Made by a program: the position numbers and the translations under genes. Below, piece after piece: positions 16,637 through 18,388 of a stretch of DNA of 64,000 nucleotides. Position 1 is the stretch's first letter, and every line of letters begins with the position of its first letter. This DNA is from Streptomyces sp. NBC_01268 (GTDB lineage: Bacteria > Actinomycetota > Actinomycetes > Streptomycetales > Streptomycetaceae), in NCBI RefSeq assembly GCF_036240795.1, contig NZ_CP108454.1:1364001-1428000 (forward strand), written 5' to 3'. A model generated the notes under the pieces. The model did no database searches. It had not been told where the DNA came from and was given only the letters and a program-made list of their open reading frames with translations.

Positions 16637-16939
16637 TCAGATGATCGGCTCGTGGACGGTCACCAGCTTGGTGCCGTCGGGGAAGGTCGCCTCGACCTGG
16701 ACGTCGTGGATCATCTCGGCGATGCCGTCCATGACCTGTTCGCGGCCGAGCACCTTGCGCCCGGAGGCCATCAGCTCGGCGACGGTGCGCCCGTCCCGGG
16801 CGCCCTCGAGGACGTGGGAGGTGATGAGGGCGACGGCCTCGGGGTGGTTGAGGAGCACTCCGCGCGCCCGGCGCTTCTCGGCCACGTCCGCCGCGACATG
16901 AATGAGCAGTCTTTCCTGCTCATGGGGGCTGAGTTGCAC
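16637..16939 (-). CDS. ureA: Urease subunit gamma
   Basis: Small structural subunit, 100 residues. The sequence [38 protein letters not shown] and [42 protein letters not shown] is diagnostic. The start is the GTG at 16,937-16,939, with AGGTGG upstream; a 10-codon N-terminal extension is open but unlike the family. It is the first gene of the minus-strand operon ureA-B-C-F-G-D, and its promoter must lie in 16,940-17,105. Confidence 0.97.
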
Positions 16940-17063
16940 GCTTCCACCTCGCTGTCGTCCACCGGGCATGACTCCCGGACGCAGGGGACCCTAACGATCC
17001 TCAACACTCTGTTGACGACGTGAGAAGGGCCGCCGCACCAGACATTGCACGTTAGGGCGGAAG

Positions 17064-17105: not shown

Positions 17106-17390
17106 TCAGCCGGCGGGAGCGCCGGGGTCACGGTGATGGGCGGCAATGCCGAAGCGGCGCTGTTCACCCGGAGCGGACGCGAGCGAGTTGACGCCGGAGA
17201 CCGAGCTGATCGCCCGCTCCTCGACCGGCTGGTCGATCGCTTCGAGTCGTTCCAGGTCAGCGGCGGACACCAGGGCGACGAGGGGCTTGCCGTGGCGGGT
17301 GACGACCACGCGCTCGTTGCCGTAGACGACGCGGTTGATCAGGTCGGCGAGCTCTGCCCGCGCTTGCGTCACCGGAATCTCATAGGCCAT
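17106..17390 (-). CDS. Orphan Phd/YefM-type antitoxin-like protein
   Basis: About 94 residues. The N-terminal half, [52 protein letters not shown], is a clear Phd/YefM DNA-binding fold, the antidote and autorepressor of type II toxin-antitoxin systems. The C-terminal 40 residues ([26 protein letters not shown]...) are low in structure and would be the toxin-binding part. No toxin gene (Doc, RelE/YoeB, Fic or PIN) is next to it. It is divergent from the ClpP-like gene over 58 bp. The start chosen is the ATG at 17,388-17,390; an ATG three codons upstream is possible. Confidence 0.85.
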
Positions 17391-17406: not shown

Positions 17407-17433
17407 CCTGTACGTCCTGTACATTTTTTACAG
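17407..17433. promoter_or_regulatory. Repeats in the Phd/ClpP-like divergent promoter
   Basis: CCTGTAC occurs at 17,407-17,413 and 17,416-17,422, 9 bp apart. CTGTA (17,417-17,421) also pairs as an inverted repeat with TACAG (17,429-17,433) over 7 nt. Three half-sites in 27 bp fit the operator of the Phd-type autorepressor and would cover both promoters. Confidence 0.5.
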
Positions 17434-17448
17434 ACAGAGGAGTACGCC

Positions 17449-18075
17449 ATGCCCGACGCCCGCTACGTCCTGCCCGAGTTCACCGAGCGCACCGCCTACG
17501 GCAGCCGCACGCTCGACCCCTACTCGAAGCTGCTGGAGGGCCGGATCGTCTTCCTCGGCACGCCGATCGACGAGACCTCGGCCAACGACGCCATCGCCCA
17601 GTTCCTGCACCTCGACTACGCGGCCCCCGGCCGCACGGTCTCCCTCTACATCAACTCCCCCGGCGGCTCGGTCAGCGCCATGACCGCGATCCACGACACG
17701 ATGCGGACGCTCTCCTGCGAGGTGGAGACCACCTGCCTCGGCCAGGCCGTCGGCCCCGCCGCCGTCCTGCTCGCGGCCGGCGCCCCGGGGCGACGGCTGG
17801 CACTGCCGGGGGCCCGGATCGTCCTCCAGCAGCCCGCCATGGACGAACCGTTGCGGGGCCAGCCGAGCGATCTGGACATCCACGCGCGGGAACTGCTGCG
17901 CCAGCGCGACCTGGTCGTCGCCCTCCTCGCCGAGAACACCGGACAGAGCCGCGGGCGGACCGCCGCCGACCTCGACCGGACCACCGTGCTCGACGCGATG
18001 GCCGCCCGCGCGTACGGCCTGGTGGACCACGTGGTCGAGAACCGCGGCCGCGCCGCCGGCGCCGGGGAGCGGTGA
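17449..18075 (+). CDS. ClpP-family protein lacking the catalytic triad
   Basis: 208 residues with the full ClpP fold: [68 protein letters not shown]. Compared with E. coli ClpP, the GQAASMGAF serine site reads GQAVGPAAV (Ser to Gly), the MIHQP histidine reads VLQQP (His to Gln), and the position of the catalytic Asp reads Thr (DRTTVLDA). I checked the first two at codon level (GTC GGC CCC, CTC CAG CAG). It should therefore not cleave peptides, but may assemble as a structural or regulatory ring subunit. The start ATG at 17,449 is preceded by AGAGGAG. It may be the fifth Streptomyces ClpP, which is inference. Confidence 0.9.
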
Positions 18076-18082
18076 GCCCGCC

Positions 18083-18388
18083 ATGGTCCCGGAGCTGCCG
18101 CCGCTCCCGGCCCTGACGCGCGCCGAGGGCGAGCTCGTCGACACGTACCTGGAGGTCGTCGACCTCCTCGGGAGGATCAATCCATCCAGATCCACGCATA
18201 CCTATGGGGCACTTCGCGCGGCTCAGGCGCTGGTGGGACGCGCCACGGCGCTTCGTGACGCCCTGACGCTCATGCATATGCGGGGCGAGAGCGAGGTCCA
18301 CGCCGACACATTGGCGCGCGCGTTAAGGGTGTTGGACGGAGAGCGACGGGCGGGCCGGGTCACCGTGCCCGAGGAGCCCGCGAGTTGA
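18083..18388 (+). CDS. Small helical protein downstream of the ClpP-like gene, unknown
   Basis: 101 residues, not recognised. The start lies 7 bp past the ClpP-like stop, so it is likely co-transcribed. It looks all-helical and hydrophilic (TRAEGELVDTYLEVVDLLGRINP; GALRAAQALVGRATALRDALTLMHMRGESEVHADTLARALRVLDGERR). No membrane segment or signal peptide is present. The central codons are less GC-biased than in the neighbours (for example AAT CCA TCC AGA). It could be a partner of the ClpP-like protein; only the spacing supports this. Confidence 0.6.
   Translation: MVPELPPLPALTRAEGELVDTYLEVVDLLGRINPSRSTHTYGALRAAQALVGRATALRDALTLMHMRGESEVHADTLARALRVLDGERRAGRVTVPEEPAS

Follow-up and report, generated by a model that had tools for sequence, protein, structure and literature searches.

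What might a ClpP-family gene contribute to its host when the protein it encodes retains the fold and has lost all three catalytic residues? The question is raised by the window studied here (the whole stretch of DNA that was analysed, 64,000 nucleotides of Streptomyces sp. NBC_01268, contig NZ_CP108454.1), which comes from a Streptomyces-type genome of ~8.5 Mb with three ClpP-family genes, namely a clpP1-clpP2 pair and a single open reading frame at 17449-18075. An initial annotation had described the product of this frame as a pseudoprotease that could still form mixed rings with active ClpP or bind Clp ATPases, with a 101-residue gene just downstream as its candidate partner. We compared the locus with its counterparts in 199 sampled Streptomyces genomes, and its features (window coordinates) are as follows.

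16637-16969: ureA-like gene, beyond phd and 137 bp from it
17106..17390, minus strand: phd, an orphan Phd/YefM-type antitoxin-family gene of 94 aa, divergent from clpP5 (PF02604, phd_fam)
17409..17434, plus strand: operator-like element TGTACGTCCTGTACATTTTTTACAGA, inverted repeat TGTAC-N5-GTACA, recognised by its conservation in orthologue loci
17449..18075, plus strand: clpP5, a ClpP2-type ClpP paralogue of 208 aa without catalytic triad (PF00574, alignment, tree)
17752..17754, plus strand: catalytic Ser position, codon GGC, Gly102 (alignment, codons)
17827..17829, plus strand: catalytic His position, codon CAG, Gln127 (alignment, codons)
17980..17982, plus strand: catalytic Asp position, codon ACC, Thr178, with the adjoining Arg177 kept (alignment, codons)
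18083..18388, plus strand: small gene of 101 aa, predicted three-helix protein without known family, 7 bp 3' of the clpP5 stop on the same strand

An alternative in-frame ATG for clpP5 lies upstream at 17389; the start is likely 17449, because GGAG precedes it and because a start at 17389 would put the conserved operator inside the coding sequence. We take the genes on the far side of phd to be urease-like and the gene downstream of the small gene to be NlpC/P60-like. A promoter and terminator scan returned 0 promoters and 0 terminators.

A ClpP2-type protein without its catalytic triad

The ClpP domain (Pfam PF00574, E 2.2e-56) spans residues 18-198 of the product, and residues 2-203 align without gaps to Mycobacterium tuberculosis ClpP2 (5dzk, E 4e-59). 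Where ClpP1 and ClpP2 of the same genome carry Ser-His-Asp, this protein has Gly102-Gln127-Thr178; it is thus a member of the ClpP family that lacks the triad of an active ClpP peptidase, and the replacement of all three residues that the initial annotation had read from the letters is borne out. A triad at shifted positions was considered and is ruled out by the gapless ClpP2 alignment together with the lack of any further Ser, Thr, or Cys among the residues surrounding the catalytic Ser position. Nor is the loss due to chance, since in the listed homologues, the best 120 of 7992, the triad is nowhere intact and 31 proteins likewise keep none of its residues. The residue next to the lost Asp, Arg177, is conserved in 147 of 148 orthologues (delimited below); the equivalent Arg of other ClpPs connects ring assembly with the active site. 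An AlphaFold2 model of the protein was too poor for use (pLDDT 62).

To which of the Streptomyces ClpPs does this protein correspond? Each of six five-ClpP genomes examined has a clpP1-clpP2 pair, another pair, which is of the P3/P4 kind in five genomes and of a different kind in G162, and a single gene, which is the one that matches the window's frame. A quick-method tree of 74 ClpPs, including 46 of the 148 orthologous rows, unites the orthologues as a single clade (SH-aLRT 94), whose neighbours are ClpP2 and four ClpPs linked to polyketide synthase (PKS) genes, with ClpP1 distant; the tree does not settle the order among ClpP2, PKS-linked ClpP, and ClpP5, and its P3/P4 groups drew a long-branch warning from the program. 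As a single gene outside the P1P2 and P3P4 pairs, with a clade of its own on the ClpP2 side, the 208-aa frame is, by elimination in the six genomes examined, the ClpP5 of the literature and, from its placement, a ClpP2-type paralogue. The 'monocistronic clpP5' of S. lividans is likewise a fifth, singly encoded gene outside clpP1clpP2 and clpP3clpP4 (PMC9765437, PMC12607617, both as excerpts), while stepwise triad loss, a small gene, Phd, and a conserved site are not mentioned in those excerpts. The literature searched, to which the S. lividans clpP papers of Viala and colleagues did not belong, contained no description of the triad state of ClpP5, of the small gene beside it, or of any link to Phd, and the excerpts available from it state no role for Streptomyces ClpP5. 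Separately, G162 possesses an additional ClpP1-like/ClpP2-like pair outside the usual loci (contig C23, 279243-280485; L268, L288), and the ClpP2-like member of this pair (L240) has Gln in place of the catalytic His and Ala in place of the Asp.

A ClpP2-type ancestry matters for what triad loss would mean. In S. hawaiiensis, according to the available excerpt of PMC9765437, catalysis comes from ClpP1 and ATPase docking proceeds via ClpP2, and a core with ClpP2 S131A is fully active while ClpP1 S113A abolishes activity. For a ClpP2 paralogue, then, loss of the triad need not mean loss of a role in the ring. The reading we prefer, tentatively and with somewhat less than even confidence, is that ClpP5 is a non-catalytic ring subunit paired with ClpP1, under Phd control and with the small protein as its partner. 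As a ring or ring-blocking subunit it would pair with ClpP1 and replace or compete with ClpP2, and its triad would have been free to erode, many times over, because a ClpP2-type active site is dispensable where ClpP1 does the cutting. Mixed rings with active ClpP, as first suggested for this protein, are plausible. ClpR of cyanobacteria and plastids likewise comprises non-catalytic ClpP-family subunits of mixed rings (PMC6508832, as an excerpt), with the difference that the ClpP5 residues were lost within Streptomyces, where intact orthologues persist.

Docking onto Clp ATPases is a different matter. Housekeeping Streptomyces ClpP2, the closest paralogue group in the tree, has the triad and all three docking-pocket residues (Ser94, Tyr96, and Tyr116 in the S. 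hawaiiensis reference) and sits in the clpP1clpP2 pair, whereas the window's ClpP5 keeps two of the three, Ser65 and Tyr67, and has Thr87 as the third. Across the 148 orthologues, Tyr67 is kept in every one, whatever the triad class, and Ser65 in 110; the third residue is an aromatic one (F or Y) in 127, among them 29 of the 40 orthologues that have zero or one catalytic residue. It is non-aromatic in all of the 120 nearest homologues listed (the best 120 of 7992), and because the window's protein, too, has Thr there, ATPase docking may have been lost in this clade. The proposed binding of Clp ATPases is to that extent weakened, and in its ordinary form appears doubtful here.

The lost third residue favours, for this clade, either an altered docking mode or a poisoning of the ring. 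Poisoning, which we consider unlikely but worth weighing, would mean that ClpP5 of this clade enters assemblies with ClpP1 or ClpP2 that are then inactive or incomplete; the effect, comparable to that of ClpP-ADEP on ClpP1, would be to lower Clp proteolysis or to shield the cell against antibiotics that activate ClpP. It would account for a protein in which the triad and one docking aromatic are gone while Tyr67, Arg177, and the whole domain are still constrained, and it would suit the presence of a paralogous phd-clpP-small cassette ahead of a PKS gene in at least 4 of 199 genomes. ClpP-ADEP of S. hawaiiensis is comparable as an accessory ClpP, encoded near a biosynthetic cluster, that remodels the housekeeping core and prevents ClpP1 tetradecamers; however, it is closest to ClpP1, is proteolytically active with ClpP2, and is known from an ADEP producer and not as a genus-wide locus (PMC12607617, as an excerpt), whereas ClpP5 falls on the ClpP2 side. 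Further, the four PKS-linked copies have intact triads, unlike a simple poison.

Triad loss across the genus and selection on clpP5

Orthologues were delimited by a cut-off of E < 1e-63, which gave a match in 148 of the 199 genomes (one genome per species, one orthologue per genome); this 148/51 division is one of score, because the remaining 51 include at least one divergent in-place copy (L116, 55% identity) and several remnants. Three triad residues are kept in 57 of the 148, two in 51, one in 34, and none in 6, and by single residue Ser is kept in 114, His in 67, and Asp in 126. Among the 80 loci nearest the window's clade (the best 80 of 533), three, two, one, and none are kept in 1, 40, 36, and 3, respectively; because the 148-genome and 80-locus sets share some genomes, the loci counted below in totals of 223, 208, 179, or 228 do not each stand for an independent genome. 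The pseudoprotease description thus holds for the window's protein and its close relatives but not uniformly for the family: intact orthologues do exist, as would be expected had this one copy alone been mutated, but the window's protein is far from alone in its losses. Since 57 orthologues keep the triad, catalysis may matter in their lineages.

These losses have been frequent. On one tree of 155 rows, from which the three catalytic columns were removed and in which branch support was ignored, a losses-only count gives ~20 losses of Ser, 12 of His (one of them covering a clade of 49 rows), and 10 of Asp, and a fewest-changes count gives 19, 11, and 10. The triad is intact in 42 of 70 five-ClpP genomes vs 12 of 73 three-ClpP genomes (Fisher p 6.6e-8, with 5 four-ClpP genomes left out), a link to ClpP3P4 that is inseparable from descent because just 5 independent pairs lie on supported branches. 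The resulting series of orthologues at one syntenic locus, from intact to triad-less, makes the need for catalysis in a ClpP2-type ring directly testable.

Codon-model omega, from 14 random sequences per triad class, is 0.068 with the triad intact, 0.084 with two residues kept, and 0.096 with zero or one kept, and the corresponding NG86 pairwise medians (pairs drawn from the 228 loci, dS 0.15-1.0) are 0.310, 0.358, and 0.422. These values indicate that clpP5 is under purifying selection, slightly relaxed with triad loss, and that the degenerate gene is maintained. In several lineages it is nonetheless dispensable, because at L114, L115, L117, L118, L119, L120, and L121 the small gene, and usually phd as well, stay in place, whereas of clpP5 there is a remnant, a truncated or frame-broken copy, or nothing. 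Such in-place remnants or deletions amid persisting neighbours, the stepwise loss of the triad in many lineages, and the somewhat higher omega once triad residues are gone are what one would expect if ClpP5 were a redundant protein under relaxed selection and the window's clade a late stage of its decay. We nevertheless judge that quite improbable, as selection and synteny disfavour it: omega is near 0.1 even where zero or one catalytic residue is kept, the conserved site and the small gene are retained, and the fully degenerate state is common to 31 of the 120 best homologues listed.

The Phd-type gene, the operator-like site, and the small helical protein

The 94-aa phd gene carries the antitoxin domain of type II toxin-antitoxin systems (PF02604, E 6.8e-13 in Pfam; phd_fam, E 2.1e-15 in NCBIfam), and its N-terminal half is at least 97% conserved at most positions, including R11 and R32 (208 orthologue loci). 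It is flanked by the ureA-like gene and clpP5, with no toxin gene between it and the former; type II YefM/Phd loci differ in this respect, the gene here being an orphan conserved opposite a clpP gene. At E < 1e-25, phd is present in 148 of 148 genomes with a clpP5 orthologue vs 8 of the 51 without. It stands divergent to clpP5 at less than 200 bp in 113 of the 148 and at 200-1500 bp in 17; in the other 18 it is farther away, its best match lying 1.3 to 347 kb off or on another contig.

A site common to 179 of 228 phd/clpP5 intergenic regions (the 179 aligned being those under 160 bp) has the consensus tGTACgTCCTGTACATTTTTTACaG, in which capitals mark at least 85% conservation. When up to 3 mismatches are allowed, the 8.5-Mb genome has a single copy of its 20-base core (0 of a control pattern), and 143 of 148 loci have the site in the 300 bp upstream of clpP5; the reversed pattern has 0 matches in the 1,334,409 bases of loci scanned. 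The site goes with clpP5, because 17 of the 18 genomes with a far phd retain it at clpP5 whereas none of the 16 far phd copies examined (16 of the 18 genomes, within 2 kb of each) carries it; autoregulation of phd by this site is therefore not general. The far copies (L293-L308) share other upstream sequence, AGGTCAGAGG or AGGTCAGGGG within 90 bp in 12 of 16, which suggests a regulatory site of their own.

Operators of YefM have TGTACA cores 12 bp apart (PMC3303803; PMC4803016, as an excerpt). The clpP5 locus resembles YefM/Phd systems in the antitoxin domain and in its TGTACA-type site, which holds TGTACG and TGTACA, although its half-site centres are, by eye, 9 bp apart and not 12 bp. From these likenesses we infer that the Phd-type protein probably binds the TGTAC-N5-GTACA site and probably represses the clpP5-small operon through it. 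The supply of ClpP5 could, further, be coupled to Clp activity through degradation of Phd, a possibility raised by phage P1 Phd, which is degraded by E. coli ClpXP (by a title cited in the excerpt of PMC4803016).

The small gene that had been proposed as a partner has proved to be a real, operon-like neighbour: in 147 of 148 genomes it is encoded 3' of clpP5 in the same direction, the gap having a median of 7 bp and measuring 0-30 bp in 211 of 223 loci, and it is missing from 4 of the 80 nearest-clade loci (L051, L054, L062, and L099). Of the 51 genomes without an orthologue-level clpP5, 9 encode its protein at E < 1e-30 and 5 give a weaker match, the one in G016 being a PKS-linked copy; across the order, 186 of 245 genomes have it, and these belong to 2 of the 8 genera. 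Residues of the small protein that are conserved include TY..LRAAQAL. Neither Pfam nor NCBIfam contains a family that matches it. The AlphaFold2 model comprises three helices (mean pLDDT 75), a fold search against the PDB gave 0 matches at E <= 0.001, and a profile search of PDB sequences reached at best E 0.041, with designed miniproteins. In the preferred reading, this helical protein would probably be a partner or adaptor of the ClpP5 complex. The conserved site and the small gene offer handles on when ClpP5 is expressed and with what it associates.

That the small protein might instead be a toxin, Phd its antitoxin, and ClpP5 the factor releasing it is very improbable: the Phd-family domain, the YefM-like site, and the near-constant company of the three genes would fit, but phd is divergent from the small gene and not co-operonic with it, is far off in 18 of 148 genomes, and lacks a strong match in G170 and G172 where the small gene persists, and the small protein itself has neither a Pfam or NCBIfam family match nor a PDB fold match at E <= 0.001.

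The window's small gene has a TTA leucine codon, rare in Streptomyces, at 18323-18325 (residue 81). Conserved control by bldA was considered and rejected, as any TTA occurs in 7 of 223 loci and one at the place of residue 81 in 3; bldA dependence of this gene would be at most strain-specific.

Sister cassettes ahead of polyketide synthase genes

The PKS-linked cassettes occur in at least 4 of 199 genomes, G058 (locus L256), G151 (L257), G016 (L258), and G064 (L259), where a paralogous phd, a thioesterase gene, a clpP, and a small gene precede a synthase gene of ~2,100 aa. Their ClpPs are ClpP2-like, with the triad intact and Tyr as the third pocket residue, and their small protein is 51-57% identical to the clpP5-linked one. 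All four loci also have a weaker match to the operator-like site, with 1-3 mismatches, next to phd on the side of the thioesterase gene. Domains were profiled for the synthase of L257 and the thioesterase of L256, and relatives of these in the other three loci are 68-75% (synthase) and 73-77% (thioesterase) identical; a second synthase-like stretch follows the ~2,100-aa synthase gene in all four loci. That phd, clpP, and a small gene keep company in both settings speaks for a functional unit. Neither these cassettes nor the divergent phd gene and the operator-like site had featured in the initial annotation.

Where a ClpP gene adjoins a biosynthetic cluster, it is a recognised candidate for self-resistance (PMC13386464, PMC12607617, both as excerpts). 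By that analogy the PKS-linked ClpP is a self-resistance candidate, L256-L259 are candidates for a cluster that makes a ClpP-directed metabolite, and a clpP copy ahead of a PKS gene flags candidate clusters for ClpP-directed natural products more generally. A wider picture, which we offer as speculation and regard as doubtful in its entirety, would be that of a genus-wide, partly mobile module, made up of the orphan Phd-family repressor, its own operator, a ClpP2-type ring subunit that can do without catalysis, and the small helical protein, which monitors Clp activity and gives the ClpP1 protease a non-cutting ring in exchange for its usual one, with the intact-triad sister copy serving to protect polyketide producers from a ClpP-directed product of their own cluster.

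In one of these genomes, the PKS-linked cluster is adjoined by genes for an FAD-dependent (NAD_binding_9) enzyme and a Lyase_1/ADSL_C protein (L256:1759-5459), a pair that we presume to resemble the CreE/CreD nitrous-acid pathway.
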